64,000 nt of DNA, taken from contig NC_085869.1 in NCBI RefSeq assembly GCF_034702125.1, forward strand, positions 18,692,177 to 18,756,176. The letters are read 5' to 3'. This DNA comes from Engraulis encrasicolus. Taxonomy: Eukaryota > Chordata > Actinopteri > Clupeiformes > Engraulidae. Of the stretch, positions 1,448 to 64,000 are shown piece after piece (within the stretch, counting starts at the first letter, position 1; each line of letters begins with the position of its first letter). The translations under genes were made by a program, and so were the position numbers. The notes beneath the pieces are model-generated. The model made no database searches. It was not told where the DNA came from and worked only from the letters and a program-made list of their open reading frames with translations.

Positions 1448-15086
<13,639 letters not shown>

Positions 15087-16487: not shown

Positions 16488-16585
16488 AACGCCATTACAC
16501 GCTGAAGAAGGGCTCTGCCCGAAACGTTCGTGGGCGAATAAACAAAGAAGAAATCTGAAGAGTGCTGTCCTTCGCTTCATTTATT
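16488..16585 (+). mobile_element. 98-bp insertion with hammerhead-like head, 14-bp duplication
   Basis: Flanked by CTCACAGCCAGCCA at 16474-16487 and 16586-16599. It contains CTGAAGA at 16500-16506, a 4-bp stem GGGC/GCCC, then GAAACGTT; CACG before the core can pair with CGTG after it. That is the conserved strand order of a type I hammerhead ribozyme with a minimal helix III. An AATAAAC-like segment follows. Ribozyme activity is inference. Confidence 0.6.
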
Positions 16586-16805
16586 CTCACAGCCAGCCAG
16601 CCAGCCCACTTCTGACACCATAGTTAAGGGGAGTAGAGTGGCTCTGCCAGGGCTCAAACCTGTGAAACCGATCCTCCTGGGATATCAAGCTGGCGCTACT
16701 GAGACACTTTTTTTGCTTGACAGTCAGATGGTACCTACAACCCAACAAACCCTACAAACAGGTAGGCCTATAAGGGGACAGACGCAAAACTGGAGCTAAA
16801 AAGTT

Positions 16806-16925
16806 TGGTAACACTTTATTTTAGGGTTACATATAAGCACTAACACAAACAATGTTAATGCCTGTATAAATAACTTGTAAGGCATGTACTAAGCAAAATA
16901 AAGTATTTGTTAAGCATGTATTCAC
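16806..16925. repeat. fragment of a GGTAACACTTTATTTTA repeat
   Basis: Begins with the GGTAACACTTTATTTTA end common in vertebrate MITEs. A similar block is at about 20469-20600. Confidence 0.5.
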
Positions 16926-17348
16926 AAATGTCTTGTTCATGCATAGTTACTAATTCTATTGCATCTGGTTGTCAAGTCAAAAACCCAGTCATCAATTGTA
17001 TCGCATCTGGTTGTCAAGTCATCCCAACGTTCTGCGCGCGTCCTTACATGCCTCCGATAGGGGCGCGTCTCAATAGATTAGGAAGTGGTGCCCGTACCAA
17101 GCAACGTACCAAGTGCAGTAGTTAATCTACTTTCTCACGAAGCCTTACTGTAGATCAAGTATGGAATAGCGGCCGACGAGGTGTCCCGATATCAAGGGAA
17201 ATAATGGACGAGGCGGAGCGGTCCCTATTCTACAGTGATGCATTGCTCAGCCCTGATGGCTTAGGCCCCCGCACTAGGCTACCTAGGGCCCCCTCATTAC
17301 CTAGGGCCCCCACACTACCCAGACCCACACTACCTTCAGTATATCATG

Positions 17349-18600
17349 AAAGTGAGTACACCCCTCACAGCTTTTGCAGATTTGAGAGTATATCTTTTCA
17401 TAGGAAAGCATTACAGAAACTTCACTTTGACACAATGGTTAGTGACCTTCTAACAACATATTTACATTATTACATTATATTGCATTTGGCAGACGCTTTA
17501 TAACCAAAGCGACTTTCAAAAGAGGACATATTCAAGCCAACATCACAAGCAAATACAATGTGCACAGGAGATATACAGAACAATAAGTGCAGTTGCAGAG
17601 GGGTTAGTTGTTGTTTTTTTTTTTTTTTTTTTTTAATTAAAGAGTAAATAACGAGTACACACACACAAACTAACTAAACTAACCATCATGTCAGGAGTCT
17701 GCCCTGGGGCAAGGCCAGTTCAAGCATTAGTCTAGTAGATTCTCTCGAAAGAGGAAGGTCTTTGGTTTGATTGAATATCAACCGTGCCGCCGCATTCTGG
17801 ATCATCTGCAGAGGTTTTAGCGCACAAGCAGGTAGGCCTGTCATGAGTGAGTTGCAGTAGTCAACGCGGGACAGGACAGTGGCCTGCACCAGTCGTTGTG
17901 TAGAATATTGTGTCAGCACAGGTCTGATATTCCGTACGTTGGACATATTTAACCGCTTAAATTTCTTTACAATCAAAATAGGCCTACAGCCATTCATGTT
18001 TGAACATGTACCCACAAAAGTGAGTACACCCCAGATTAAAATCCGGTAGAGAAGGGGCCGTGTTAGCTCGAATCATCTCGGGAAAAAAAGGGATTAAAAG
18101 GGAGGTCATCGGTGTGCGTTTCAAACCTGCTTTGCATTGAACTTTTACATTTTGAGTGTGCACCTGTCTTAAATAGATTGGTGTAAGATTTGACTGCAAT
18201 CCTATGGAGAATATCATGATCTGCTTCAGTAGTCACAGTGCATGTTGACATGCATGTTTCTTTTAGGTGTATTTCAGATTGCCAATGTTGACAGCATTCA
18301 TGCATCCCCAAACCATATCAGTCCCACTACCATGCTTGGCTATTGAGAGGATACACTTTTTTTGTAAAACTCACTTGTTTACCACCGCACATGCTTGACA
18401 CCATCTAAAGCAAATTTGTTTATCTTGGTCTCAAGAGAGATGAACAGACCAAGGATATGGATCACTGGAACCATGTCGTGTGATCTGAAGAGACCAAGAT
18501 AAACAAATTTACTTTCGATGATGTCAAGCATTTGCGGTGGTAAACAAGTGAGTTTTACAAAAAAACGTTATCCTCTCAATAGCCAAGCATGGTGGTGGGT
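17349..18600. mobile_element. decayed Tc1/mariner-like element with nested insertions
   Basis: AAGTGAGTACACCCC occurs at both 17352 and 18018, and transposase-like traces read on the minus strand (18063-18311). The blocks near 18370-18430 and 18495-18560 are inverted relative to each other. A SINE-like unit (from about 17462, GCATTTGGCAGACGC) and an L2 fragment interrupt it. Intergenic spacer between copies A and B. Confidence 0.5.
17690..17965 (-). pseudogene. L2-like LINE reverse transcriptase fragment
   Basis: The minus-strand translation contains SRVDYCNSLMTGLPA, followed by LQMIQNAAARLIFNQ, the conserved region after the RT domain in fish L2-type LINEs. Only a short 3' part remains. Confidence 0.75.
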
Positions 18601-18964
18601 GTTTAATGAAAATAATGTCTCTGGGGGGTTATAAATGAGAATCAAGAGCAATAAAACAACACCAATGGGACAGTCCAAAGTACAAAATAATGCACAAAGA
18701 TCAGGCTCAAAGAAAAAGACGTCACCAAAGTAGGCCCTAGGCAACTGTACAATCTTTACTCTATATACCTGATGATAAGATAACACTCGGCACAGAATTG
18801 TCTTGCAATTCACTTCTCCTCAATCAACATAAAGACAGTAAAGTAAAAACACAGGACACTCCCCGGCCACTTAATTACAAATGGTACACATTCCACCCTC
18901 CTCAAGCTGTCTAGGACACGTTTCAGTAATTCTCACCCTGTCAATTTCTCCTGAGATACAGTAC

Positions 18965-19017
18965 ACATTTCAGCTGCTCAAAACGGGAGAGGAGACTAGT
19001 ACACTTTCACTTCAGCC
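18965..19017 (+). promoter_or_regulatory. slc15a1: proximal promoter / 5' UTR of slc15a1 copy B
   Basis: CTGCTCAAAAC, then GGAGAGGAGACTAGTACAC up to the ATG, matches the copy A leader. The TATA-like ATTTATA of copy A is not kept; the same place reads GATACAGTACACATTT. Confidence 0.35.
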
Positions 19018-22000
19018 ATGGAAGGTGAGAAAGAAGAATAATGAAGATAAGTTTAGCCTTTTCCATACTGTACACATCCAACACTAACAGTCGCACATTT
19101 ATGATTCTACAGAGAAGGGGGATAAGGATGAGAATCGGAGGACAATTCCAAAGGTGAGGTTCATTTGCGGCATCTTTTCCCTACTTGGTGTTTGTCTTCA
19201 TTATAATTACTGGATTGGATTTATTTAAAGACAGAGTAAAGACAGAGCTGATTTTTTTTTACTGCAAATTTCAATGACACTAGACGATTTTACATAAAAT
19301 GTTTGGCCAATACGTATTTGAAGAAAACTTGACAATATTTTTTTACTGAACTGCTACATGTAGGCTACATTGCAAGCATAACTGGATTAGTGTTATCTGT
19401 GTTTATCATATGTGATCACCATATCAAAACATAGAATGTGTCTATAAAAGGTTTTGGAGGATATTTTAGTTTTTACCGTGCCAGTAATTCACTCAAATAC
19501 ACAGCCAGACCAAAAAAAGTTCCCAGCAAAAACAGGTCACACACAATAATATGTTGTTGGACCACCTTTAGCTTTGATTTGATGGCTTGTGTGTTGTTTC
19601 AATAATCATCTCTTAGGTCTGGATTTATTTCCTTCTACTGTATATGCATTATAAGGACAACTGCACTATGTTGAACATTAAGCCCCTTTTCTGAGTTGTC
19701 TGCAATGCTTTAGAGTCCCCCTAACTGTTTATCATGTTGTTAATCCCCCTAACTGTTTGTCATATCATTAACTGCTTGTCATGTTTGCTGCTGTCTCCGT
19801 TCTTTGGCTAATTGTGCATATTGCCTCAACTGGATTTAGAATGGCCGTCTATGGGCATGTCCAAACATTTGTTTTCAAGAATATGCAACTCAGTGTTCAG
19901 GAGTATTCACTAGTATTCCAATACCATTTTTGTAGTGAAACATGGCGTCTCTCGTTTTTTATGTAGCATTATGTAAATACATTTTCTTTTGCTTCATTCA
20001 CAAAATGGCAAATAATATATGACAGAAGCCATATTTCGCCTTCAAACTTGTTAGGGAATGCCAACAACCCTCCACTTAGTGAGATGTTTCGAAAACAAAT
20101 ATTTAGACTGTTTTTCTAGAACATATTTGGACATGCCAAGATGCAAGAAAACATGGTTCAGGGAGCATTTAATTATTTATTTAATCATTTATCATTATAT
20201 GGATTGGTCACCACAGAGTGCAGACTGCAACCTCGGGGAGAATCATTGGAGTGTGATGGAGAATGCTTTAACCCATTGATGCCTAAGGCACCTGCAAAAA
20301 AGGTGCTGAATGCCTGAGCCCTTTTTAAGAAAAGCTGCCCTCAGCCTATAAAAACCTAAATATCTGAACCTCTGAAGCACATAAAAACATGCAGTAAGTT
20401 GCATGTAAGCAGTAAGACCCTTATCTTTCATTAGAATGTTCATTCATCTCAAACAAACAACGATTTTGGTAACACTTCATAATACAGACTCCTTTTTAAA
20501 CATTTAAGCATTAGATAACCCTTCGTAAAACATTTGTTAACCATTATCTCTTTATTATTTCCCATTAGTTAATCATTAACATACACTTTTAATGGTTTTT
20601 GATACTGATACATATGTGGGTCAAAGACGTCCAACATGAAATTGTCCTTCAGTGCTAACGGACACTTTTGCTTATTGTAACTGTGAAAAACATGATTTTC
20701 AATTTTTTGAAAAGTGAATGCATGAAAGATAATGAAAAGAAAGAAAAATAATAATAATAAAAAAAATCTCTTATTTGCATTTACAGTAAGCAAAAATATC
20801 CGTGATGTCTTTTTTGTACACATTTTTTTTAGTTCTAACGTTCTTCCTCTATTCTGCCAGAAGGTGGAGTGCTGTGGCTACCCACTCAGCATATTCTTCA
20901 TATTGGTCACCGAGTTCTGTGAGAGATTCTCCTACTATGGAATACGAGGTACAGACAGCATTGCCTCAGTCTTCGGTGTTGTGATATTAAATATTACATA
21001 CAACATTGTCTCTGGTGCTGTATGAAGCACTGTCATCTCTCAGTGGCCTTTTGACATTTTCCTCTCTCTTCCTGACATTCCTCCAGGGATTCTGCCGTTG
21101 TACATAACGAAATTCTTGTTATGGGACACTCATAATGAATTTTATATGTACTATGCCTTTCTGGCCTGCTTGTACCTGGCACCGATCCTGGGGGGCATTA
21201 TTGCCGACTCTTGGCTCGGGACGTTCAAGTAAGCGTTATTGACTCGCATCTTCTCAATCTCACATTCCACCTCCTTCTTTATGTTCTTCATCTCATCTGG
21301 TATCTCTTCTTCATGTAGGACTATCATATACCTGTCAATTGTCTCTGCTGCTGGCCAGGTCGTATTGACTGTTAGCGCCATTGATGACATCACTGTACCA
21401 GACAATCTTACTGTTCACCGGTGAGTGGAATTTGATGTTACCATCTCGCTTTAGTCTTATAGTGCTTTAAAAACTCACAAAGAAAACACTCACAAAGATA
21501 GTGTCATTATGCATGCCAGTCCACAGAGTGAATACAAGAATTGTATTCATAGTCATGTGTGAATATTTATGTGTATTGCCTTCATGCTTATATTACTTAT
21601 ATATTATTGTGACTGTCGGAGAGATACCACAGACATGTATTCATCATGTAAACCCGGGATGGGCGACTACGAGAGAAGCTACAAAATGATAAATAACATT
21701 TTTAATATATATATATATATTTATACCGAATGTGTATTAAACCATGGCATTTTAACATGATAAACAACATTCAACTTGATAAACAACCAAATGTTCAGTT
21801 TGAAAGAAAGAGAAAAAAACTCATGTAGACTGTAGGCCTAATGCTGGCAATAAATTAAATTGAGGAGCCGCACTGAGGGAGGAGGCGGGCCGCATGTGGC
21901 CCCCGAGACTACAGTTGCCCATCCTTGATCTGAGGAGCTGTTTCCACGAAGCAGGATATTTTTATATGGATATTTTTTTCTCCTGGTTACATTGGTTTTG

Positions 22001-25000
22001 GCCTTCCGTTTCCACATAGCAGATATTTAAAATCCAGATATAAAAAAGCAGGCTATAAAAATATCCTATTTAAGGGGGCTGAAACACATTTGTTACAATG
22101 GAGGATTTATTTTTATCCATATGTTGCATTTACACGTAAACAGGAGGAAAAAAATACCCTGCTAAAAAAATATCCTGCTACGTGGAAACAGCACCTGAGC
22201 TATGCTATGCTTTCTGTCACAGGGTTCTTGCCGTGATTGGCCTGGTCCTAATTGTTTTGGGGACAGGTACAATCAGACCATGCCTACCTGCTTTCGGAGG
22301 GGACCAGTTTGAGCACCACCAGGTAAGATGGGTAGGCCTACGCTGTTTATTTGTTTATTGTCCATCACATCACATAAGCTGTGATATGATTTCACATCAT
22401 TTTTCATGTGTCATTTCATTTTTTTCAGACCAGGCAAAGGAGTATATTCTTTTCAGTGTTCTTCCTCTGCAAAGAAGCTGGATTACTTGTCTCTATTTTC
22501 ATCTCTCCGATTTTAAGACGTTAGTGGGGACATCATTCCATATCCTTACTGAATAACAATTTACTGTGATAATTTGCTATATAAATACTTTTTTGATTTG
22601 AGTTCCTTGGATGATGTCTGTTGCACCTCCCATGTGGCATATTGTGTTGTTGTAAGGCAACTTTTTATCCTTTTTACCTGATCCAAACAAATAATTTGTG
22701 TGTCAGTCGGTTTGTCTGTTAACCGAATAAATCAAAAGACATGAAAGCATTATCCTGAAATGCTAACAAATATCAACAATTGTACAGTATTCCTGTGAGG
22801 TCATGCAGTTCACTGTGGTGACCTGACAAGGACATGTTTCCTTTAGTATATGGGTCTACACTATACTGTACTTGTGTGCTTCCAAACGTTCTTAAACAGT
22901 TAGTTTAAATACCACTATATCAGAATCGTCACAATAGGACATAACTGGAATGCACAACCCTACCTCTTTTTTTAAATACAGTATATGTTCTATGTATGTC
23001 TGCTGTTGCCCAGTCTTGCACTTTATATGTCTGCATGGGTATTGTATAGGTACTCTAGGTGTAATGTACTGTATGTATATTTTCTATGTCTAATTGTCTA
23101 TGTACACACCTAGAGTCAAGAGTCTATGTCTGTCTGTATGGGAAAGTAAGAAGCAAGTAATTTCAATTCTTTGTATGACCAGCACATGTAAAGAAGTTAA
23201 CAATAAAACCGACTTGACTTGACTTGACTTGACGAAATGTGTTTCCCACCACAGGTCAGAAGTGTGGCATCCAAGTGTGCTACCCGCTTGTCTCTGGCGT
23301 GGCAGCAGCTCTGATGGTGGTTGCATTAGGTGGGTCGAACCTCATCATACTGAAAAGCCAAAGGCAATTAGAGCTTAACCGCCACTTTTACTGTATGCAT
23401 TAAATGTTAATGATAACATTCAGCATAGGCTACATTGTGTAATGTTGCTTTGTGTCCCATCAGTTGTTTTTGTTGTTGGAAGTCGAATGTATGTGAAAAC
23501 TGCTCCAACGGGAAACATCATTCTGCAGGTGTCAAAATGCATTGGTGTAAGTACTAATTAGTACATCTACATTCATGCTAGGCCTACTGCATTTTTGTTG
23601 AAGTTTTACTTTTATAAAAGTTTAATGCATAAGCGTAAGTAGCCTACAACATGTCATTTTTGTTGGTTTAAAGTTGTATTTCTGTATAGACCTACAGTCG
23701 TTTCATTATTATGGTATTATTATTTCTGGTGATCATCATCATAATTGTAGATTCAGGTTTTTCTATTTAACAGAATTGTTGATAACAAGTTGTTTAAGTT
23801 TGAAAAAGACCCAGCTGGACTATAAGAATAAGGTTGAAGAACAATGAAGGACTGGTAATGCCAGAGATGCCTGGAGAGGGCTGAATAAAATGATGGGAGC
23901 AAAAACTCATCTCGTGATAGACCCTGTCCAGTTCGCCAACAATATAAATACGTTCTACTCTAGGTTTGATATCCATGACTTTCAAAAGGAGTGTGATGAT
24001 GTGTGTGCTGGTCTGACACCTGACCCTATGATCATTCAGGAGCACACAGTGACCTCCATATTCCAGAGGCTAAACCCTCAAGGGGAGGGTGCTAAAAGAA
24101 TGTGCCAACCAACTAGGTCCAACCATCACAAAAATATTCCAACTGCTCCTCAACAGCAACTCTTATCCTACAGCCTGGAAGACAGCAACCATCATCCCTG
24201 TGCCAAAAACTCCCCAGGCCAAAACCAATAATGACTTCAGACCCATTGCCCTTACACCCATCCTCAGCAAATGCAAGGAGCACTTAATCCGCAATAACCT
24301 GACCCGCCAGGTAGCAGGTCAGTTAGACCCCATGCAATTTGCCAATCGTTCCAACAGGGGGGTGGAGGACGCTACACTCACTCTCCTAAATAACCTACAC
24401 TGTCACTTGGATAAGCCAAAGACTCACGCCCGTGTTCTTTTCATGGATTTTTCCTCAGCGACTCCGTAACCTCAAAGTCAGTTCTGACCTGGTCCTCCTC
24501 ATCAAGGACTTTCTGAAGGACAGACCTCAGCGGGTCTGCATCAAGAACTGCCTCTCTGACTCTCTGGTCCTCAACACCGGTGTTCCTCAAGGATGTGTGC
24601 TATCACCCCTGCTCTTCTCCATATACATAAATGAGCTACAGTGCAACACTGATGACCTATCCCTCATCAAGTATGCAGATGACATGGCCCTAATTGCCTG
24701 ACTAACAGCTCCCCCTACCTGCAGTACATCAACACCCTATCTGTATGGTTCGACAGCAGTTTCCTGGATCTCAATGTCTCCAAAACCAAGGAGATGTGGC
24801 TGGGAACCATGAAGAAGGGAGGCAATAAAGACTCTGGGCACACCTTCAGGCCAATCAGCATGAAGGGTCAGGAGGTGGAGCAGGTGTCTCAGTTCAAATA
24901 CCTTGGGACAGGCATAGATAGTCAGCTACAGTTCCAAGACCATGTGGACTACACCAACATGATCTCCAAAAATTTCGTGGTCCTGGACACGGATGTTAAG

Positions 25001-28000
25001 GACACAAAATCCGTGTCCAGGAGCACGGATTTTGCCAAAATTCTGTGCTCCTGGACACGGAATTGTTTTCCGTGCTCTTGGACATGGAATTGTTTGAAGT
25101 GCTTTCTATAGGCTATTTCCACAGTCTTGTGTTTTGTCAGGATTTTTCTAATTTTAAATATTTTGTCTAAAACAAAACATTTCTTACTGACAGGTTAGGT
25201 TTAGGGATTGTTTTGGTCTGGGCACAGCTAGTTTTCTTTCATTCATTATATGAGTTTGATAGCCTAGCAACCAACTGGAAAAGGTTTTTCTCAAAAATAT
25301 GTCTTTAATGACAGGTTAAGGTTAGGGAATGTTTTGGTCAGGCACAACTTAAATTGCTATAGCATAATTTTGTTTAGGATTAGCATTTGGTATGTATTTT
25401 CTAATGATAGAGTTAACACAGTGCTGTGGTAATAGCCTATAGAAAGCACTTCCGTGTGCCCATCACGGAAAACAATTCCGTGTCCAGGAGCACGGAATTT
25501 TGGCAAAATCCGTGCTCCTGGACACGGATTTCGTGTCCTTAACATCCGTGTCCAGGAGCACAGAATTTTTGGAGATCAGGCTGACTACACATTCAAAAAA
25601 GGCAGACAGCGCCTGGCTCTCCTGAGGAAAGTCAGGGGCCTCATCACCAGTCAGCGCACTATGTCCATGGTCTATAAGTCCCTGACAGAGAGTGTACTGA
25701 CATTCAACATTGTGTCATGGTATGGATACCTATCTGTCAAACAAAAGAACAAATTGGCACAGATCGTCAACCAGGCTGGAAAGATCCTTGGATACAAACA
25801 GCTGCAACTTTCACACCTGCACACGCAGGCCCTAACAAAGAAGGCTCATCAAGTCTATCTGGATCCTACTCACCCTCTTCACTTGTTCCACGGAAAAACA
25901 TCAAAAATATGGCAAATAATGGGCAGCATGTACACTTTTACACTTCAGCTTCAATAACAAGCTGCACCTGTGCAGTACAGAACTGCATGCTGATTGGATG
26001 TTGCACCTACCCAGGCGCGGGGCTGATTGATTGTTAATTGAAACCCGCGGATGGTGCTCATCCCGGCCATGGGGCTCATTGATTGTTAATTGGAACCCGC
26101 CGACGGGGGTTCATCCCGCCGGTGGGGTGCATTTAATGTTAATTGAGACCGCGGGCGGTTGTAATCACTGGCCCTCAGCTGGCAGCGGCAGCTGGGTGTT
26201 ACACATGCAGCTGCAAACCCCAGCTGCATGCGCCTGGTACTATCAGGGTGCCTACTGATGCTTAGTGCCCATGGAATGTGGCATCTGGGCAGGCTGGTCG
26301 GTATCAGCTCAGCCCTGTGCAGTGGTAGTGGGGCCTGGCAGATTGGAGTGTCTAGTGTGCCCTGATTACCCATAGCAAATGTCTCTCGAGAAGTCATGAT
26401 GGTGTTGATATGGTGGTGGAGAAAACTCTTTGAAAAAATGTATTTGTAACCGCCGGCCAGGCTGTATACCGCCCGCGACTGGTGAACATTGACTGGTTAA
26501 AAAACATCTCTAAAATATTTTGTGTTATCTCTTACAAAATATTTTTTTGAGTTCTGTGAGCTTATTCAAGTTTACAGTGTATTAATATAGTACATACAGT
26601 ATATGAGTTAATACATGGTGGAGTGTGTTTCATGCTAACTAAGCCGCCCAAACTGTTGTAGTTTGCAATCAAGAACCGCTACAGGCACAGAAGCAGTCAG
26701 TATCCCCCAAGAGAGCACTGGATGGACTGGGCTTCTGACAAATATGACGTATGTATAATTTTTTCTTTACCTTTGTAATGTATGTAAAAATGGCAAGGAT
26801 GGATATGGCAACAATGGATATAATGCATGTTTATTGGACTGTGCTGCCCTAACAGCGTATGGACCTAGATGACCAGACTCTATAGGCCATGTTGTGTTTT
26901 TACGTGTTTTTAATTTGGGTCTTTATAATGTGGATTGTGGAGAAGTGTCATGCAAGACAAAGTTCTGTGCACACATGCAATAGGTTGTATCTTATCTTAT
27001 CTCATCTTATCTTGTCTTGTCTTATTTTATCTTATCTTTAGAAACTCCTGATACAGCAGATCAAGATGGTCCTCAAGGCCTTGTTCTTGTTTTTACCCCT
27101 GCCTATGTTCTGGATGGTGCTTGACCAGGTACTGTAACATGGATGAAATCCCATTCAAAAGCACGATTGTATTGTAATGTTATGTATGAGGTAATGTAAT
27201 ACAAAAGAGATGTGTATTTGAGTCACATATTGACGAGTGGAGACTTGACAATTAATAGGAATGACTTCTTGTGACTTGACTTGACTTGACTTGTATGCTA
27301 TTAACTCAAGACTTGACTTGAACTTGTCAGTCTTAGCTTGCCATGACTTACAATGGCCTGTCAAGTCTACATATATTCCATTTTCTATATTTGTATGTGA
27401 AAATATTGCATTACAAAAAGAAAATGTAATGATTTCTCCTTAACCAGTACTAGTAGGCCTACTATCTTTGCTAATAACACAACTGCGAAGGGGCACATGC
27501 ATAGCAGTGTGGAGAGGAAATGAATTCATTTATGTCCAAAACTAGTTGTCGAAATTGTACGTAGAATACATGGTGACTTGTCCAGGACTTCTGGTGACTT
27601 CTTAAGGAAAAATGAGACTTGAACTTGGACTTGACTTGACTTGGTCAAATGTTTCTTAACTTGTGGCGGATGATACAGGTAGGGTGCATGTATGGTGATA
27701 ATGCAGAACTGGATTTGTACAGGAAGGTGTTACATCCTGCTGGGCATTGCTGCCTGTCGCACCTCCTCCGGTGCCCATGGGTCAGCTGCAGGGTCATCAG
27801 TCGGGAACCACCGTGTCATCAACGTTTCGCCCCTTTAATCCCGAAACGTCTCCGGTGGCGGGACAGTGACAGGGACGTCTCCCTGTCACCCCCTGCAGCT
27901 GATAGATGTTATCCCTGCGGCTGTTTTCTGGGGATAGTTGTTATTCCCCCAGCTCCTGTCCTTCCTCCGCAGCCAGAGCCAAAAGCTACCTTTTTCTGCC

Positions 28001-31000
28001 TCTTCTGCCAGCTCCTTTATTGCCTTCTTTAGCCTTCCTCCAGTGACTCCCACATCCTTCAGAGGGCGTATGGTCGACAGCCCCATAAAGCCTCGGCATC
28101 CAACTTCGACTGGATATATGGAAGTCTTCCAGCCCGCCTCCCGGCGCTCCGCAGCCAGTTCGGTGTACTTGGCCTTTTTCCGTTCAAAGGCTGCCTCAAT
28201 CCCTTCCTCCGGTGGTACAGTGAGCTCTATCAGAGCTACCGCTCTTGCCTTTGCAGACCAAGCCACTATGTCTGGCCGGAGAGATGTGGTGGTGATCTCT
28301 GTGGGAAAGTGAAGCTTTCTATCTAAGTCAACCTTCATGCTCCACTCCTGGCCGGGAGTGAGGGGCCTTGTTGTTTCTTTCTGCAGGTAGGTGATAATAA
28401 GTCGTGCCGGGTAACATTCTAGATTTCTTTCATTGCAAGCCTATAAACATCACATTCATATTCAGCTTCATGAAGCTTCATTTTTTTTCGTCCTCTTGCA
28501 GTGAATGGCTAAAATCCTTGAAAGCATGTGTGGTGTCTGTCTACTATGTGGTATTAGTCATTGACAGTATATTACAGCTGTCAATGGTATTGGTATGGAA
28601 TGCTAGTATATTGTGTTAATGTACTGCACTATGCATAGGTTTACCGTTTGTAAACAATTCCTGGCTACGCGACTCTAACCGTTTAACCTCTCATTGTTGG
28701 AAACTGCTGTCGGTCAAAAAATGAGCACACGTGGTTGGCTGCTTAGCATCTTGCCCCTCCTCACAACACGAATGTTTGTAAACGAAAAACCTATGTAGGC
28801 CTACTGTATATGGAATGGATGGTAATGGATCATAACAGGCACTAGACCCTGGCAGCACAACACCCCCATACTCAAGCAGCTTCACTGGATCCACATCAAG
28901 TCACGCATTACCTACAAAGTCCTCCTCCTAACCTTCAAGTCCCTCCATGGTCTGGCACCCCACTAACTCACAGACCTCCTTCACCCCTATGACCCCTCAA
29001 GATCCCTGCGGTCCTCTTCCAAGGGCCAGCTGATCGTCCCTCATACCAGGCTCAAGGCCACCAGTAACAGAGCCTTCCATGTGGCTGCTCCCATTCTTTG
29101 GAACAATCTGCCCAACCACATCCAGAATGCCCCTTCACTGGCCATGTTTAAGCAACACCTTAAGACACATCTCTTCCTGGAGGCTTATGGCAGCTAGTTC
29201 CACAAGCACTTTCACTTACATGCATTCACACACACGCTCACACACTGACGCGCACACACACTCACACTATCCAACACAACACTCTGTGAAGTGTCCTTGG
29301 GTGTTTTGAAAGGCGCTATATAAAACGAAAGTATTATTATTATTATTATTATTATTATATGCACTGTATGCTGCTGGACACCGTCATTCCATCCGGTAAT
29401 GACTTATTTCAGCTAGTCAACTCTTATGAAAATCGACCAGTTTGAGCGGGCGTGAGTGGGGGCACGACCCTGTTCTCAAAGGTGTCTGCCACAAGACCAA
29501 CAGGCCACTGGCTGTGCCTTGTGGGACTCCACTGTTGTTCCTGGGCTTCTTTCTCTCTGCACGGCGGATGATCGGGGCTGCTTTCTCTCTGCATGGCGGA
29601 ACGATCAGGATCGTTTGTAAGTCCCTTAGAGAGAGTAGAGTAGTTGAACGAATTCGACTGATAAGAGAACAATAGGACATGTATTTTGTGGAGTAATGTT
29701 TTGTGGAGTAAGTTTGGAGATACTGTGAATGCCCGCCTATCTATTTGAAATAACCATACAATAACTCCGGAACTCTGATAATGTTCGCCCAAGCCAGAAA
29801 ACACTTAGGGTGGACTACTGGATGGACGTCACGGTTCAAATGGTATTAGGGTGAATCTACTCCGCACCATCACTTTAAGTAATATCAGTGGCTATGTCAT
29901 TATGCTGTGTGTTTGGACATAACCACCATTGCCATCCACAGGCACACTGGAGTATGCAAGCCATGGGCATGGATGGAGACTTTGTAAGTAACCTTCACCA
30001 ACAGTCAGAGTAGCCATAAGTGACATTCAATGCTTGTTGACCAACTCACTCTTGTTTTTACACAGGGTTTTATTATTGTACAGTACGATCAAATGCAGGT
30101 AGGCCTATCTTGTGGTTATCAATGAAAGAGCATCATTAACAAAAAGAACAATAAGCCTAAACTGTTGTGTCAAATTCGTCATTAAAAAAATGTTGTCATC
30201 TTAGTCAAGTATATTACAGATTATACATACAGTAGGCTATATTACATTGCCTTTGTTTTGTTTTACAGACTTTGCTACCCATCTTGAATATCATTTTAGT
30301 TCCGGTCGCTGGCTTACTTATATACCTCATTGAAAAATGTGGCTTCAAAGTTCTGTGAGTTTTCTTGTTATCATTGTTACTATTTCTTAAAAGTCAGAAA
30401 GTCATTTACTGTATGACTGGTGGGATTCCAAGTATAGCACATTCTAATTGTAAGGTGCAGGAGAGTTTAGCTGGAAACCTTTAAAAATGTCAAAAATAGG
30501 CTCTATATTTTTCTTGTTGCACAGTTGAAGACCAAATTAATACCAATAATCTTTTCATGAATATTTTCTGAATAATGAACTAATATGTACTTGTATGACC
30601 AAAGAACAGTAAGTTTTGCAGCTAAAAATGTCTATTTCTCGTATGGAAAATGGTGGATCATGGAGAAGTTCCCTAGTTTTCATGTATGAAAAGTGCAATT
30701 TTCTCAGTCATATTGAATACATATGTAATATGAATTTGATGGTGATGGTAAGTATTTGTTAAAAAGGTAACATTTGTGAATGGGCAGCATGGATTCTGGA
30801 ACTACTAAAACTATTACACAGTACACCATGCTGCTGTGTGTGTGTGTGTGTGGGGGGGGGTGGGGGGTATAGGTTGGTACAGTATAGCCTACTTATGATG
30901 AAGTCAGGGCTGTTGGCTAACCTGATTATCAATGACGTTCAAATCTCTTCGAGACTTGCAACGCTGAAAGTGTTGCATCACTGGGAGGGCACAGTCTGGC

Positions 31001-34000
31001 TAGGTGTTGGCATGCACATGACAAGGACAGGGGGGCATTTCTTTAAAAACGGTGGCGAACCGACTGTTAGACAAATGACCACACATGTCTCCCACAGGCC
31101 CTTGAAGAGAATGGCAGTTGGGATGTTTCTGACAGCTATGGCCTTTATTTCTGCTGGCTTTGTTCAGCTTGAGGTTGATGTAAGTACATCCTGAGAATGA
31201 TAACCATTTTCTCAAAACCATTGTACACTCATTTTTTACAGTATGAACTTGTATACTATTTCATTTCAACAGAAAACCTTGCCTGCCATGCCCACAGAAA
31301 CACAGGCCTTCGTGAGGGTACTGAACATGAGAAATAACAACGTGACTGTAGAAATCGCACCTTATGCCGCTTTTCAAATTGGACCTAACCAGGTGGACCA
31401 CACACAATCACACTGATGATTTATTTGATTATTTATTTTTGACACATTCACTACGTTTACATGATGTTTTTAATTCCGAATTCATAATCAGTTCTGTGGA
31501 GTTTACTTTGATCTTTCCTTTATTCCAAATTAAGAGGTGTTAACATGACGTTTTCAAAGCTGAATTGGCCGGTCGCAAAAAACACGCCTCCTAGTTATTG
31601 TTGCTACGTCCTTCAAAACCTTAAAACCAGACACACGGTTTGGTTGCGGTTCATGTGTGTTCACTTATTGCATGCACACGCTGATTCCCAAAAGCTATAT
31701 TCAACTGTGGAGTACAACAACTTGATGATGGCGATATAATGTCTGTAACCAGGACATTTTGATGGTGTTTGGTGTAAACTGGGGAATTGCAGAGTCCACC
31801 AGAACCTTTGACAGGGCGTTGGGCACACTGCACACAGCTCTGGGGTAGTCACACTGGGTATCTTCTCTGTTCACTTTTAATAGTTGTAGTTGACAGTTCA
31901 TATCTGCATAACAATGTTGGGACAAGTGCAGCCCCATTCCAGTGTTCTTTTTTTTTGACTGTCACATGCCTAAGCTACACACACACAAACACACACCAAG
32001 AAGGAGAGAGGGCGGGGGTTGCTCCGTGGGATGTGTATTTGGCATATTTGACTTAAGTCACACAACTAGTTGTTTCCAAAAAATTGAATCATAATGCCGT
32101 GAATCCAATACTATTATATAATGCCATACACTATTGTCCTTAAGTTGGAGCGATGCATTGATATTGGTTAAGGTTACATTTTGTGCCAGCTGAATGCAAA
32201 GTGGAAGGGGGCTTATTAGCAAACAAGACGATTGCACAGTTAGCCTAAGCTACGTACAGTGTGGTTTGCTCCAAGTCCAAAATAAGCATACACATTTATT
32301 TTTCTTCATTCAATTCCAAATGGGCAAAGTGTTTTTTGTTGTTGACGATATAGGCTACATAGTTAGACAGGGGAATCACTTCCTTTTAAAACACTCTGCC
32401 AGCAACAGTTGAATGAACAAATCCTGCTACTTTTAAATATGATCACTTGGGGCTAACAGCCCACCAAATGGCTCCTGTCATCAGTCGGTTTGAGGTTTTG
32501 GCTTCGGAAAAGTGAAAAAAAACCTGAGGTCCCTATCAAAACATTTAGGTGGTGTTGGACATGGAGGTGCCATAGGCACACATTATACTGTCTCGCTGAA
32601 AGCGCAAGTTTTGACGGAGGTCCTTCAAATTCTATTCTCCTTAGCCGTTGCTGAGCTCGGATTGGTTGGCGGCCGCTTGTGGGAGGGGTTTTGTGATCGG
32701 TCAATTAAAGTATTTCTCAATTGGTTTTGTACATTTCTCGAATCTGTCTCGCAATTTGCAAAACATAATATTCATTCTCAAAACAGCTTTAACAAATGGC
32801 AAAACACGGTGGATAACCTGCAAAACCGAGTCTCTTGCTCAAAACCCTTATTTGTCTTTCAAAACCAAGTTTTTTGTGTCAATAAACGTATCAGCGCCAG
32901 CAGAATGGTTAGTCATTCTGTCATAGTGCATGGACAAGCTAGTCAAATCAATTTATCATGTTGTCAATTGAATAGTACACTCTTGAGGATCTTTTTTGAA
33001 GTGAAATGCTGTTTAGATTGGATGGGAAATGTTGTAAATTCAGTTTTATATTACATTGATCAGATAAGATTGAGATAGTTTCATGCATTCAGTGATAAAG
33101 CTTTTTGAGTGATATGACAAAAGCAATTGATAATGTACGAAATCACTGAGAATTGTACACACCCATGGCATGGTGGACGAGAGCATTTGCTATATGCCGA
33201 AAACAATGAGAAACTGATTTGACCATGTGCACAGGTAACACCAGGAAGACAGACTTTTGAGAATCATTATTCTGTTGTGAGAAATGTACAAAACCAATTG
33301 AGAAAAACTGTAAGCTTCATTCAGAATTAAATGGATTTAATTCCGAATTAAATGTCTCATGTAAACGTAGCCATTGACATAATCTTACACATTTCACTGT
33401 TATAATCCCTTATTTCATTTTAGGCAAATGGGGAGTATTTAACACTTGACTATGGAAGCTATGAAGATGTCTATTTGGACAATGAGCTTGTGCATGTCAG
33501 GGTCTTCTCAGGCACCAGGCAGACTCTAGTTATCAATCCCGCTCCTCATGTTGGTATGATCCGAGTAAGTGATTAATATATTCCATTATTACAAATTATC
33601 TACAATAAAATATATGCCCTCTGTAGTCAGTTATAATATCAATTTTATTTCTGCCTATAGTATGATGATGTAAATGGAAAACCTCATGGAGACAACTATG
33701 TAAGGTAGTCATTTCATTTCCCCCCCCCCCCCTAAGCTATAAAAGGAGCTGTGATTTAAAAGATCTTTCAGCCTCATTGTGTTACAATTCCGTTCCTTCC
33801 CTCAGATTCATCAGTGGCTTAAGCACAGGAGTAAGAGTGTCATTGAATGGAGTATATTTTGGACAATTATCCACACTAGTGATGTCCGGTTACAGCAGTG
33901 TATCACATGAGAGGTATGTGTATCTATCTATCTTTTATTGCAGTCTCTCTTATCCCTGTTTGTTTGGTGAGGACACAACAAATAATAATATAGCTAGAAA

Positions 34001-37000
34001 TGCACTCCTGGAGTTCAGACCTCCACCAAGGAAGCTGTTCGATAGAATATTTGACTATATGTTACACCCTACTTTTTTATGCAGTTAGAAACTGGAGTGT
34101 CAAAATTCATCCTATTCCACAATGGTGAAGTATCTTTAACAAGTCCGACAGGCGGACAACAGATGCGTCCGTCTATGCCCGTTCTGAACCTTTTTTGCCC
34201 AAACGCCCCCTTGGCCTCCTCATAACCTGTCAAGGCAATTTATCAATAAGCCTACCATGTACTGTATAAGCCTGGATTTGAAAAAGTACCATAGGATTTC
34301 AACAGTGTTGGGCAATTTACTGAAAAACTGTAATGCATTGCTGATTACATGTTACTGTCTTTTCAAAAGAATCCCTTACACTACATTTAGCAATGTGGGG
34401 ACCTAAGGCGAATTTAGCTTAGGGGGGCCATCGGTCCATCCCATATCACATTTTTTTTTAACATAAAATCTCTATTTTTGTTAGGCTATTTTTTTTTTTA
34501 AATCACTTTTTTTTTAATTTTTTTTTTTATTACAAACATAAAAAACAGGCAAACATTACAACCCTTTCTGGACAGATTTCAATGAATAGGCTATTTGCAA
34601 TTTTGCATAGGCCTACATTAAATAAACTAAAATGTGAAATTCTCTTTTCACTTTAATATGAGAGCAGTGATGTCCCCCCCTCACTGAAGTGTTATTTCAT
34701 GTGTGAGCATGATGCTGTCACCTATTTGAAGTGACGTTGATGTTGGATTTCATGGAATACTTTTAAATGCCGCTTTGGGAAGAAAACAGAGTAGGCGACA
34801 GGTGAACTGTATTTCTGTCAAAACAGTGGTTTGCAGGCGTTTGCGTTTTCACGTGGATATTGTCTTCGTGGACCGTAACAGACAAACCGTAAGTTCCATA
34901 AACTAATCAATGAGACATTGGCTACGTGTACATGATGTTTTTAAATCCGATTTAATAAATGCGATTTAAATAGATCGGATTAAGAGTTATTTTGCGATGT
35001 GTATACATGGCACTTTCACTTAAATGCGATTAAACGTCTGGGGAAAATAAAGCATTGCGATTGGACTGAGGACGCACGTGCTGAGCGAGCCAAATAAGGC
35101 ACGGGGGCGTGGTTCAATGCCACCGAGATGCAGGTCATCTTCCCCACGAAAATCGTTGCCTCAGGCGGACTGAAATCACAACATTTCCCCCTTTCTCCCT
35201 GGATCATTTACAATGCTACATTAGCTACCCTGTTAGCATAGAAAAACGAGTGGTCAAATGGTAATGTGGAGTAACTTTGTTGTGCTTCATTACTTCGTGG
35301 GGCACTTTTACATCAATATATGGAAGCCACAACATTTATAGTCGCTTTAGGGACTTTAAATTAAGCAAAACTTTCATGTGAAAATCAACAGGAAGTGCCG
35401 CCATGTTTTTCTCACTGGCAAAGAGCACGGTTGGTTTGCACGCATGAGCTCCAGGCCAAAACTGAGCGACTGCCACCTTGTGGACACAAGAGGGAATCAC
35501 AGGAGGGAATCACAATTCAGAAACGCATCACGGGAGGGAAACACATCACGGGAGGGCGGACGGACGGACGGACGGACGGAGGGACGGACGGACGGACGGA
35601 CACCAAAGCCTCTTATAGAGATGCGTGGGACGCATCTAAAAATAAATCATTGTGGTCCGGATCACCAACAACAACTCCACAAAAGTTCATCGAAATCTGT
35701 TCATAACTTTTTGAGTTATCCTGCTGACAGACAGACAAACAGAGATGAAGCAACGTGACCGAAAACATAACCTCCTTGGGGGAGGTAATAACTATTGCAT
35801 GCATATTGAATATACAGTATGTACAGTGTATATCTGATTTGTATTATTAGGCAAACATTCACAATCAGCAATGTTGCTGGACAGCAATGTGACTACACCA
35901 GGGAGTTTGGCTTTGGAGGGGTCTACACTATCGTCATCCCCAGTACTCTTTCCTGGGAGAATGTAAGCTACACATCACAGCAATACATACACTTAGGGGT
36001 ATAGCCAGGCTTCAGTATTTTATTTTATGTTATTTTATTCTTTATTTTACCTTTATTTAACCAGGGAACAAAGTCACATTGAGAATCGAATTCTCGTTTT
36101 TAACAGTACAAATTTGATCCATCCACTTTCTGAATCACCTGATCCTGTGTGGGCCGCTGTGGCCTAGTGGTTAGAGAGTTGGTCTTTCACTCTATGGGTT
36201 CCAGGTTCAAATCGCCCTTGACCTCTCCCTGCATCTCCATCCATGGCTGAAGTGCCCTTGAGCAAGGCACATAACCCCGTAACCAATACCCTGAAAAATA
36301 ATAACTGTAAGTCGCTTTGAATAAAATGCAAGCGTCAGCTAAGTGCAATGTAATGTAATGCAATGTAAGTGTCACAATCGTAAAACTAGACAAAAAACCC
36401 ACTTGGCAGCTGTCAATGTAAATCAAAGTAGAACAGGCCCACAGAACAGGTCCGTAAAAGATTGGCTTCGGACAAGTTTAAAAATGTCAGGATAAATATC
36501 CACCTTCATTGTATGGGTTGCTAAAATACATTTAAAAACAGTTGATATCAGTTAGGTAGACATTTAGCCATCCTTGTTTATTGTTTACTGTCAGCCATTT
36601 TTTGGCAGCCCTGAGCCCCTTTTCCATTGATTTCCTTTGACTGCCAAGGAAATGTCGCCAAGCCTAAGATGGCCGCCAGGATTGGTGTAATCAGTGGGGT
36701 GTGCCCAGTGTAATGTTTTTTGTGGGTCTATGGTCACAATGAGCAGGTAAAACATTAGCAAGGTGTGTCTAATTTTTGAAAAACATAATTTCAACCTCCT
36801 TCAAAGTCTTTTAAAGTTAAGTCTCTGTCTCCACCTCACAGTAGTCATTTTGGGCAGGGTGTGCACATCCAAAGTCACTTGTTGCAGGTGCTAGACAAAA
36901 GTGTCAGACAGTTGAAGAAGGTATGTCTGCACACTGCGGATTAAGCAAAAAAAAAAAGTTTATTCTGTTTTAATTTAATAAACTTTATTTTTTGGAGCTT

Positions 37001-39035
37001 TATCCGCAGTGTGCAGACCTACCTTCTTCATCGGCCTCACAGTACCAACATTTGCCAAGGTGTGTAACAGATGGCTTGTCTGTGTCTATCCAGTGCGGGG
37101 GCATTCAGGAGGTGGAGGAGATGCAGCCCAACAGTGTCCACATGGCTCTCCAGATCCCACAGTACTTCTTCATCTCTGCAGGGGAGGTTCTATTCGCTGT
37201 GGCTGGTCTGGAGTTCTCTTATTCTCAAGTGAGTGATATATTTTGCCGAAGAGGATCAGTAGTTGCTAGGCCTGTAAAGGTACACTGTATTGTATTTGTA
37301 CCAGGGCTTTGAACCGGTTCAAGGAACGAAAACGAAAACCGGGACCTTTTTGTATTTTACAGGGAACAGAAACGAAACCGTAAACGTTATTATTTTTTAT
37401 GTTCTGGAGCGGAAATACTTATTTAAAAATAATGGTAACTGGTTAATACCGGTTAATACCGTTCCTCAAACTCAAAAAAAAGTAATTATTTTCCTGTGCA
37501 CGTTACCATGACGGCTGAGGTTCATGTCCTGTGTGACATCAGACATTCTCTGACTGAATGGAGAGAGAGCTTTGGATTACAAAGTCTCCACTCCACATCT
37601 TAAATAAGAGAAACCACTGTCATACAGAAGGGCAGAGTTTCCATTGCATAATTGTAAAACATGGCAGAGAAGCGTGTGTAAAGTGCATCGAGAATGTTGG
37701 ACGTTATTGGGCATCCATGGCCGCTTCAAATATGCACAAACTCACAATGTCCATCATAGCGCTCCCTGTGACCCAAGTCAGCGTGGAGCGCGCATTTTCA
37801 TCATTGAGGTTTATTCTCCGCTTCTCCGCTTAGGTCGTCCCTGAATGACAAAATTCTGGAGGATATTCTTTTCATCCGCTTGAATAAACAGTTTGGAATG
37901 TTGGCTGATTCATTTGCACTTCCGTCTTTCTTCGTTAATTAACGTAAGTTAGGCCTATGGGGAGTAATCAGCTGACAGGAACGAAATTAACCGTTCCGGG
38001 AACAATATTTTTTGTTCTAACCGGTTCGGGAACGTCAATTTATTGGTGGAACTCATAACTGGAAACGTTATCATTCCGTTTCTGTTCGGAACGGAACGTT
38101 TGGAAAAAAATAATGGTTCAAAGCCCTGATTTGTACTGAACCGAATAGTGCTGTACCGAACCGAATAGTGCTGTACCGAAAGGTAGAGTAAGAGGTTACT
38201 CTGTTCATGTTTTAACATTATGCTGCTGCCACTACATGCAGTGGCTCTTGCAGAACGCTGACAGAGAATGCAGGGAAAAAACGGATGTAGAGGCTTGTTC
38301 TTTGTGAGACCTTGAGAAAAGCACTATTTCTTTCAATGATTAAATCTCCGACCCCAAGTAGCAGTTTGAATGTATTTTCTTTTTATATATACTGTACCGA
38401 AAATGTACCAAACCGGGACTCCAAAACCGAGGTAGCCTTTATACCTAACCGTGACTTTTGTATACCATTGCACCCCTTGTAGATTCCCATGTAACTTGAA
38501 AAATGGATTGGAATGACACATGACATTTTGACAGAAAAATATACTGTTTCATTCTAATTATGATTTTTGTCAGGCACCAAGCAACATGAAGACTGTTCTT
38601 CAGGCTGTTTGGCTGTTTACTTTATCTATGGGCTTCTTCATATCTCTTCTTGTGAACGAAGTGTCAGAGATCCTACAAACTTCAGAAAACTTTGAAATGA
38701 AAGAGGTATGGCATTAGTAAATAAGTATGTAATTTACATGTAATAACCTGTCTGCCCATATCAATATTCAGGTATTCCTCCCTGTCTGTCTTTTTCTTTT
38801 CCAACAGTGGGCAGAGTACATACTCTTTGCATCACTCTTGCTGGTCGTTTGTGTAATATTCTCCATCATGGCCTATTTTTACACCTACATTGATCCTGTT
38901 GCCATCGAGGCCGAATTCAAGCGGAAGGAGGGACTTGATTCTGATGAAACGGATGAAAATGATGAGCTGGAAATGAAAGAGAAAGAGTCTCAGCATCATG
39001 ATAACGAGGAAGGGCTAAAACAGAGCAAAATGTGA
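19018..39035 (+). CDS. slc15a1: Diverged PepT1 paralogue, copy B (complete, 23 exons, 721 aa)
   Basis: Same 23-exon structure as copy A, all GT-AG, with no internal stop in 721 aa. The fold signals remain: TM1 ExxERFxYY (34-42), GGIIADSWLG after TM2, a Trp in MFW, Glu588 (human E595), the extracellular domain and a charged tail ending QSKM. Key residues differ: Tyr68 for the proton-coupling His (human H57), Arg145 for K140, Phe172 for Y167, Glu176 for N171, Leu329 for N329 and Gly341 for D341. The FYLCINAGS signature of copy A is FFLCKEAGL. Small in-frame deletions occur in exons 5 (6 codons), 8 (3), 11, 12 and 14. The open frame over 23 exons argues for selection; the lost residues argue against ordinary H+/peptide uptake. 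An altered substrate, a non-transport role or early decay are alternatives. Confidence 0.88.
22975..23234 (+). repeat. retroelement 3' end with (CTTGA)n tail
   Basis: Ends TTTGTATGACCAG, CATGTAAAG, AACAATAAA, then repeated CTTGA. A second copy is at 43236-43466. It reaches to within about 20 bases of exon 8 of copy B (23255). Confidence 0.7.
23790..25960 (+). pseudogene. degenerate L2/Rex1-like LINE in intron 9 of copy B
   Basis: Translated pieces in several frames show FANNINTFYSRFD, a DFRPIALTPILSK block, MDFSSA (motif A, truncated), NTGVPQGCVLSPLLFS (motif B), YADDMALIA (motif C), and the downstream FKYLG and RLALLRKVRGL regions. A deletion after MDFSSA, frame changes and a foldback element (24955-25582) break it. 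The exact LINE clade is uncertain. Confidence 0.85.
24955..25582. mobile_element. 628-bp foldback DNA element nested in the LINE
   Basis: Direct 8-bp repeats GACTACAC at 24947-24954 and 25583-25590 bracket it. Arms of roughly 160 bases are inverted copies (TGATCTCCAAAAATT at the left, AATTTTTGGAGATCA at the right). Each arm contains repeated CCTGGACACGGA / TCCGTGTCCAGG motifs. Removing it restores the LINE frame DHVDYT-FKKGRQR. Superfamily is unclear; 8 bp fits hAT. Confidence 0.85.
26010..26155 (+). repeat. imperfect tandem repeat, about 55-60 bp unit x3
   Basis: Units share GGGGCTGATTGATTGTTAAT, then AACCCGC and TCATCCCG blocks. Intron 9 of copy B. Function unknown. Confidence 0.6.
27290..27320 (+). 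repeat. GACTT-rich tracts in intron 11
   Basis: Short GACTT/CTTGA repeats here and at about 27620-27645; the tail type resembles that of the element at 22975-23234. Confidence 0.35.
27886..28390 (-). pseudogene. retroelement C-terminal restriction-like endonuclease fragment
   Basis: An open minus-strand stretch of about 165 codons begins with TPGQEWSMKVDLDRKL and contains LRPDIVAWS, VALIELTVPPEEG, ERKKAKYTEL, YPVEVGCRGF and WLWLRRKD. The order RPD - ELT - ERKKAKY fits a PD-(D/E)xK nuclease core such as the restriction-like endonuclease at the C-terminus of some non-LTR elements. I recognise it as a repeated fish protein segment but cannot name the family with certainty. No reverse transcriptase is present beside it. 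It sits inside intron 11 of copy B. Confidence 0.6.
28843..29357 (+). pseudogene. L2-like LINE 3' end with ATT microsatellite tail
   Basis: The translation reads HWIHIKSRITYKVLLLTFKS, PHTRLKATSNRAFHVAAP and LWNNLPNHIQNAPSLAMFKQ, the usual C-terminus of fish L2-type ORF2 proteins. A short 3' UTR (GGCGCTATATAAA) and (TAT)n at 29332-29357 follow. A 5'-truncated insertion in intron 11 of copy B. Confidence 0.85.
31451..33370. mobile_element. 1.9-kb DNA element with CTACGTTTACATGA ends
   Basis: Left end CTACGTTTACATGA, right end TCATGTAAACGTAG. Subterminal AATTCCGAATT blocks also recur in short relatives at 34921-35035, 40322-40436 and around 44420-48110. No transposase frame is visible. A second element (32711-33310) is nested in it. 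Intron 16 of copy B. Confidence 0.7.
32711..33310. mobile_element. nested inverted-end element (TTTCTCAATTGGTTTTG)
   Basis: Ends TTTCTCAATTGGTTTTGTAC and GTACAAAACCAATTGAGAAA, with TA on both outer sides, which fits a Tc1/mariner-type MITE. Interior reading frames are not gene-like. Confidence 0.65.
33960..35790 (+). repeat. composite fish repeat in intron 19
   Basis: Blocks GACCTCCACCAAGGAAGCTG, TCACCAACAACAACTCC, TTTTTGAGTTATCCTGCTGA and CATAACCTCCTTGG are shared with the repeat beside stk24 exon 2 (56360-56800). A (GGAC)n tract (35558-35600) and a MITE relative (34921-35035) lie within. Confidence 0.55.
36151..36367 (+). repeat. tRNA-derived SINE with TAATG tail
   Basis: Head GGCCGCTGTGGCCTAGTGG, box B GGTTCAAATCG, tail of AATGTAATG units. 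Intron 20 of copy B. Confidence 0.85.
36844..37034 (-). mobile_element. snap-back hairpin insertion, 10-bp duplication
   Basis: Flanked by CCTCACAGTA at 36834-36843 and 37035-37044. The right part is a long hairpin (GAAGAAGGTATGTCTGCAC ... GTGCAGACCTACCTTCTTC, about 36911-37030); the left part is a 70-bp tail. Copy A lacks it at the matching site before exon 21. Same plan as 50457-50671 and 61053-61257. Confidence 0.75.
37310..38135. mobile_element. hAT-like element remnant with AACCGGTTC ends
   Basis: The left end near 37310 (GGGCTTTGAACCGGTTC) is matched by GGTTCAAAGCCC at 38114-38125. A short frame (37558-37833) reads PVTQVSVERAFSSLRFILR, similar to the hAT dimerisation region (SVERAFS). 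Probably a mostly deleted hAT transposon in intron 21 of copy B. Confidence 0.7.

Positions 39036-51594: not shown

Positions 51595-64000
<12,406 letters not shown>

Follow-up and report, generated by a model that had tools for sequence, protein, structure and literature searches.

PepT1 (SLC15A1) is the vertebrate gut carrier of dipeptides and oral drugs. Its peptide pocket and the gate around H57 have been defined largely through mutants that lower or abolish uptake. In the human protein, N171, N329 and E595 hold the amino end of the peptide, R27 and K140 optionally hold the carboxyl end, and the outer side is closed by the network H57-S302-N630-D298 (PMC8565842). Some bacterial members of the POT family lack the histidine of transmembrane helix (TM) 2 (PMC8565842, PMC11265797), and simulations of such proteins implicate the residue at the D298 position in the outer gate (PMC11265797). 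In rabbit PepT1, the single change Y167F leaves less than 10% of uptake (PMC3510438). The stretch of DNA analysed here, called the window, comprises 64,000 nucleotides of the anchovy Engraulis encrasicolus (assembly GCF_034702125.1, contig NC_085869.1, positions 18,692,177 to 18,756,176 of the forward strand) and contains two tandem paralogues of PepT1 (slc15a1), copy A and copy B. Copy B is an intact PepT1-type gene. Its protein likely either moves a cargo that is not dipeptides or operates through an altered mechanism. Judging from the sequence, we lean tentatively towards a POT-family transporter that would still be driven by protons but would have a substrate different from the usual di- and tripeptides.

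Copy B departs from PepT1 at pocket and gate residues jointly while its reading frame stays intact, and with a second version that carries one of these residues it amounts to a naturally occurring set of combinations. Such combinations could separate the residues needed for substrate choice from those needed for proton coupling. A literature search on tandem or teleost duplication of PepT1/slc15a1, on anchovy and on pseudo-transporters returned no paper on copy B as judged by titles and the opening of abstracts, and 'slc15' does not occur in the main text of the anchovy genome paper.

Copy B is an open gene beside a conventional PepT1

Window positions are used below, and the exons and codons of the pair are all on the + strand. 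Copy A (1448..15086) is a conventional PepT1 gene; its exon-by-exon model has 23 exons and encodes 729 amino acids, and it is completely identical to the RefSeq protein P0005 of Engraulis encrasicolus across 686 amino acids. It retains H57, Y91, K140, Y167, N171, S302, N329, S599 and N630. Copy B (19018..39035), modelled in the same way, also has 23 exons and encodes 721 amino acids. An earlier note had described it as open over this length, and the model bears this out: all 22 introns are GT-AG and none of the 721 codons is a stop. The two copies have one common exon plan; the lengths of 12 of the 23 exons are unequal, and all 12 differences are multiples of three.

Pocket and gate residues of copy B are changed

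Residues are numbered as in human PepT1 (7pmw). The comparison set consisted of 118 rows, the best 120 of 2650 database hits minus two anchovy proteins; the named proteins among these 120 are from fish and are mostly SLC15A1. Relative to human PepT1, copy B carries H57Y, Y91S, K140R, Y167F, I170K, N171E, S174L, F297L, S302A, R303H, N329L, D341G, S599A and N630F. Ten of these positions (57, 91, 140, 167, 170, 171, 302, 329, 599 and 630) are each invariant in 118 of the 118 other rows. The earlier note had listed six of the substitutions (H57Y, K140R, Y167F, N171E, N329L and D341G) and had stated that copy A is unchanged at all six sites; both statements hold.

The histidine codon CAT of copy A is the tyrosine codon TAT in exon 4 of copy B (21152..21154). 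Aligned against the 118 rows, Y91S falls in exon 5 (21344..21346) and K140R in exon 6 (22275..22277). In exon 7, the TM5 motif FYxxIN of the family has become FFxxKE (22462..22476; FFLCKE in full) through Y167F, I170K and N171E. S302A and R303H open exon 12 (29942..29947), and exon 14 contains N329L (30275..30277) and D341G (30311..30313), the latter at a column that is Asp in 111 and Glu in 7 of the 118 rows. In exon 21, E595 is retained next to the changed S599A (37184..37198), and N630F is in exon 22 (38634..38636). S302 and N630 are partners of H57; within the four-residue gate network, H57, S302 and N630 are changed and D298 is intact.

The retained residues include E23, E26, R27, Y30, Y31, R34, Y40, Y56, Y64, R159, R185, W294, D298, D323, E595 and E604. 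The ExxERFxYY motif of TM1 is present as an unchanged ExxERFSYY in exon 3 (20912..20938), and the salt-bridge pairs R185-D323 and R159-E604 are intact. The third salt bridge of PepT1, R161-D341, is missing in copy A as well, where residue 161 is Thr. The claim that the peptide-binding set had been lost is therefore borne out for N171, N329 and Y167 but not as a whole, because E595 and R27 are retained and K140R is conservative.

Among columns invariant in the 118 rows, copy B deviates at 48 of 234, one of which (I217V) is common to copy A; the corresponding figures are 1/238 for copy A, 0/238 for Coilia and 8/238 for human PepT1. When the four gaps of copy B are counted, 52 of 238 human-numbered invariant sites are changed. 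The changes include 6 of the 9 peptide contacts and H57 gate residues named by Killer et al. 2021 (PMC8565842), compared with 46 of the 229 other invariant sites (Fisher p = 0.004), the set of nine being small and taken from one paper. The RefSeq protein of copy B, P0001, scored 313.6 bits against the PTR2 profile (PF00854, cut-off 27 bits) and copy A's P0005 scored 438.3 bits. Against TIGR00926, with a threshold of 821.6 bits, P0001 reached 592.2, and P0005, which is short at its N-terminus, was also below the threshold at 762.4. The structure predicted for copy B has the 12-helix POT fold of the PepT1/PepT2 type.

The possibility was considered that copy B has the fold but does not transport, and instead influences copy A or senses substrate at the membrane. 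The excess of changes at gate and peptide-grip sites over other invariant sites and the retained predicted fold are what such a partner might display, and nutrient transceptors and the PHT1 (SLC15A4)-TASL scaffold may serve as precedents of non-transport roles. However, ExxER, D298, E595 and both salt bridges are retained, and exon 3, which encodes ExxER, is among the slowly changing exons; a non-transporting role is accordingly regarded as quite unlikely.

Another version of copy B on an unplaced contig

A whole-genome search found copy B-like exons on an unplaced contig of the same assembly, C1492 (24,368 bases). The existence of this second version is new in this analysis. The B-like matches lie at C1492 12649-18935 and represent exons 1-9, which are in frame over 255 codons with no stops; exons 10-23 of this version were not found in the genome search. 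The collinear part of the window (16126..25882, + strand) matches in blocks of 83.4-98.8% identity with insertions between them, the minimum falling over exons 4-5. Stretches close to both ends of C1492 match repeats.

The two versions do not differ in exons 1-3, and outside exons 4, 5 and 8 they are separated by 4 silent and 3 replacement differences. G138T, K140R, Y167F and S174L are common to both. The C1492 version retains H57 and Y91, its TM5 motif reads FFLCTK, and residues 170-171 are T-K, compared with K-E in copy B and I-N in 118 of 118 other rows. The Asn pair N171/N329 is E and L in copy B and K at 171 in the C1492 version, whose position 329 lies outside the contig. Since C1492 has His57, Phe167 and Lys171, the loss of H57 is not common to both versions, while the loss of Y167 and N171 is. 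The earlier note's statement that the proton-coupling histidine has been lost is thus correct for the chromosomal copy, with Tyr57, but not for the C1492 version.

Intron 4 and most of exon 5 of C1492 are identical to copy A at 293 of 297 positions, with an exact run of 271 bases; copy B aligns to this tract with 123 gap columns. Copying from copy A would most simply explain the A-like tract, which includes the retained Y91, and the two tandem genes may trade sequence by gene conversion. Codons 46-69 of C1492 differ by 14% of nucleotides from copy A and by 37% from copy B. The adjoining intron 3 is B-like (124 of 127 aligned bases). This pattern suggests that three old versions of the segment exist. 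Most likely the fish was heterozygous and C1492 represents its other haplotype; an extra partial gene copy is a less likely reading.

The divergent contig also raises the question of whether the odd codons of copy B arose by misassembly of divergent haplotypes, which may be incompletely separated. The RefSeq copy B protein is no independent check because it derives from the same assembly. Nevertheless, both contigs carry K140R, Y167F and S174L and have lost I170 and N171, and the reading frame and splice sites are intact all through, making an assembly artefact highly improbable.

A tandem duplication that probably followed the Coilia split

In a tree of 18 proteins, copies A and B are sisters (support 99/97) among Clupeiform PepT1 proteins, with Coilia grayii branching next (100/99). 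The end branches are 0.11 for copy A and 0.73 for copy B. Copy B is nearest to its neighbour copy A, with 69% identity over the tree columns. Among the matches listed, the best from another species is Coilia grayii, 66% identical to copy B and 79% identical to copy A. A search with a fragment of 165 amino acids of copy B gave 18 hits with a top identity of 62%. A search of the PDB aligned copy B with human PepT1 across almost its full length, at 682.4 bits compared with 77.4 bits for the plant protein NRT1.1. An alignment-based search for relatives in prokaryote contigs gave 84 pattern matches, of which none was confirmed. The idea that copy B is a member of the plant NPF family was ruled out, its nearest relatives being PepT1 proteins.

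Site patterns were also evaluated. At 473 columns where the outgroups agree, the groupings A+B, B+Coilia and A+Coilia were supported by 9, 2 and 0 sites, respectively, and at 686 columns decided by majority by 18, 5 and 4. An origin of copy B before the Coilia split is disfavoured by these patterns and by the A+B node of the tree. The A/B duplication thus likely postdates the branching of the Coilia lineage. Teleost PepT1a and PepT1b are products of a whole-genome duplication (PMC6923934), and the tree places the tandem duplication later and within a single lineage. At the 473 columns with agreeing Clupeiform outgroups, 92 changes are private to copy B and 7 to copy A.

Copy B has been maintained under partial constraint

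Between the two copies, silent divergence (dS) is 0.34 and replacement divergence (dN) is 0.20. Changes were polarised with outgroup proteins, and silent change was divided equally between A and B, an assumption made because only outgroup proteins and no outgroup DNA were used. On this basis the branch dN/dS is 0.72-0.91 for copy B and 0.20-0.37 for copy A.

Neutral change was simulated with copy A as the starting sequence and a rate of 0.171 changes per site. The simulation predicted 10.8-12.5 stops, and copy B has 0. Changes at invariant columns numbered 47 compared with 69-72 expected, and at strictly non-polar columns copy B has 6 polar residues compared with 21-25 expected. When the rate was halved, 6.1-7.1 stops were expected, and runs with no stop occurred once in 300 (kappa 3) and 0 times in 300 (kappa 1.4). 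A neutral pseudogene ever since the duplication was therefore ruled out, stops being missing at every rate tried, and the earlier suggestion that simple decay explains copy B poorly is upheld to that extent. Gaps in blastn alignments of A and B are multiples of three in 15 of 23 coding cases and 11 of 50 non-coding cases; exon lengths were preferred as a measure because the blastn gaps are probably set piecemeal.

Replacement changes are uneven across exons while silent changes are even. Exons were grouped after the rates had been seen, and the remaining exons were left ungrouped. Exons 3, 9, 10, 11, 21 and 23 have a dN/dS of 0.35 on the copy B branch. Exons 4, 7, 12, 14 and 22, located by alignment reading in TM1-2, TM5, TM7-8 and TM11, have 1.16 on the copy B branch compared with 0.09 for copy A, and significant positive selection on copy B was not found even with this value. 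Exons 16-20, which encode the extracellular domain, have values of 0.88 (B) and 0.63 (A). In codons 46-69, A and B differ by 24 replacement and 5 silent changes; for this segment, chosen post hoc, Fisher's test gave p = 0.40 against its own silent sites and p = 0.02 against the gene-wide silent rate. The missing stops and the uneven replacement changes together argue for long maintenance under partial constraint. Copy B thus remained an open gene for a membrane protein over most of its history, although it may have been lost very recently.

Proposed function and alternatives

The retained ExxER, E595 and D298, the lost Asn pair and gate partners, and the parallels among POT and NPF proteins are the basis for proposing a proton-driven carrier with a changed substrate. 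In such a carrier protons would still enter via ExxER/E595. The extracellular gate could close using D298 and the R185-D323 pair, by analogy with the simulated bacterial proteins that have no TM2 histidine. A charged residue at 171, acidic or basic, would with Leu329 select a new and probably non-peptide substrate. Proton coupling need not be gone just because H57 is: some bacterial POT proteins do without this histidine, and ExxER, the motif associated with coupling, is intact in copy B. The earlier note had proposed that copy B is no longer a proton/dipeptide symporter. The excess of changes at the nine named sites favours this, but the proton half of the proposal does not follow, coupling being possible without H57.

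Copy B might still carry peptides, with a change in affinity, pH range or preferred charge. R27, E595, Y30, Y31, R34, Y40, Y64 and W294 are retained, K140R is conservative, the C1492 version keeps H57 and Y91, and the handling of charged dipeptides varies among teleost PepT1 variants (PMC10475540). However, N171, N329 and S599 are lost, and ordinary dipeptide transport is argued against because Y167F, so damaging by itself in the rabbit protein (PMC3510438), is combined with loss of the Ser mapped to 599. An altered peptide transporter is thus considered unlikely.

The main rival to a changed substrate is relaxed constraint with recent silencing: copy B would have been functional under weak selection and would now be dispensable, freshly silenced or close to loss, without a new role. 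We consider this somewhat unlikely, yet several results fit it or weigh against the reading preferred here. The branch dN/dS of copy B is also compatible with weak constraint without new function, and the end branch of copy B is far longer than that of copy A. The total number of amino-acid differences, 213, is that expected under neutrality (213-221), and changes at variable columns exceed expectation (88 compared with 59-62). In the half-rate simulation only the missing stops stand out clearly, and the other contrasts vanish or weaken (39-40 invariant-column changes and 11-13 polar residues expected). A-B mismatches are about as frequent in coding sequence (0.161) as in alignable non-coding flanks (0.154). 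The opposite charges at residue 171, E in copy B and K in C1492, are more suggestive of drift than of a new pocket that has become fixed. The irregular RefSeq model, in which exon 16 is skipped and another start is used, may mean poor transcript support. The strong A/B alignment of the 5' flank begins just 45 bases upstream of the ATG; further upstream the match is weaker, with a score of 35 compared with 25 for the best of 200 shuffles. Finally, the glucosinolate carriers AtGTR1-3 of the plant NPF family differ from PepT1 at Y30, Y31, R34, Y64 and D298, all unchanged in copy B (PMC5336358). Of 13 tabulated positions copy B is changed at four, and the carriers resemble it at two of these, a lead and not a test. 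Against relaxed constraint stand the missing stops, the in-frame length differences in 12 of 12 exons with all 22 introns GT-AG, replacements that avoid hydrophobic columns and several exons, and exons 1-9 that are open in both versions.

A more specific form of the changed-substrate proposal would have an anchovy PepT1 copy become a proton-driven non-peptide carrier by the NPF route, with ExxER/E595 kept, Arg140 and Leu329 acquired and residue 171 replaced, and with ancient gate versions (Y57/E171 and H57/K171) exchanged with the parent gene by conversion. Taken as a whole this scenario is unlikely.

Gene models and genomic setting

P0001 (685 amino acids, same assembly) has a different N-terminus from the 721-residue model, is without exon 16 and has two added residues (EG) after exon 11; apart from these differences the two agree on alignment. 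The RefSeq start fits an ATG at 19128 in another frame of exon 2. The RefSeq acceptor of exon 3 is an AG at 20831-20832, 28 bases upstream of exon 3 and after a poly-T tract; at the equivalent site of copy A the AG is present and the poly-T tract is absent. A candidate 6-base exon, GAAGGT with AG/GT flanks (27723..27728, + strand), could supply the EG and is the single match within intron 11.

In copy A, intron 14 contains a near-perfect inverted repeat (9350-10435) with 467-base arms that are 99% complementary, a spacer of 152 bases and an inner 75-base pair, and a minisatellite-like array of ACATTAAGTGACATTAAATGACATTAAGTAACATTAGAGAG-type units was spotted by eye in intron 12 (8330-8720). Downstream of the pair are a LINE-type element (44790-47981), with an 801-codon open stretch containing endonuclease and reverse-transcriptase domains and an additional 262-codon open stretch beginning at 47196, and, on the same strand as the pair, five coding exons of an STK24 (MST3)-like kinase (51595-62728). 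Further POT-type loci in the same genome were found at C15:38174139-38175752 (matches 35-57% identical to copy B), at C13:50085917-50103150 on the minus strand (with exons that reach 81% identity to copy A) and, more distantly related, at C3:12429108-12429389.

Comparison with known systems

Copy B is closest to SLC15A1/PepT1 of human, rat and teleosts. Its nearest kin is copy A, the match is near full length and the 23-exon layout is that of copy A; it differs at H57, N171, N329, Y167, S302, S599 and N630. The bacterial PepTSt and PepTSh resemble copy B in having a residue other than His at the H57 position together with an acid at the D298 position. PepTSt, however, retains N156 and N328, which match N171 and N329 (PMC5336358); copy B has Glu and Leu there. 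The E. coli protein YjdL (DtpD) is likewise a POT protein whose substrate choice is governed by the residue mapped here to S599 (PMC3478282), but it is a dipeptide carrier and has Asp at this position, compared with Ala in copy B.

AtGTR1-3 share with copy B the ExxE[R/K] motif, an acid at the E595 position, Arg140 and Leu329 (PMC5336358); positions 171 and 297 are likewise changed in these carriers, to residues other than those of copy B. The carriers thus retain the proton motif although their pocket is different from that of PepT1. By the tree, copy B descends from PepT1 and not from NPF proteins. If the substrate has indeed switched, copy B would be a vertebrate counterpart of the plant NPF proteins.
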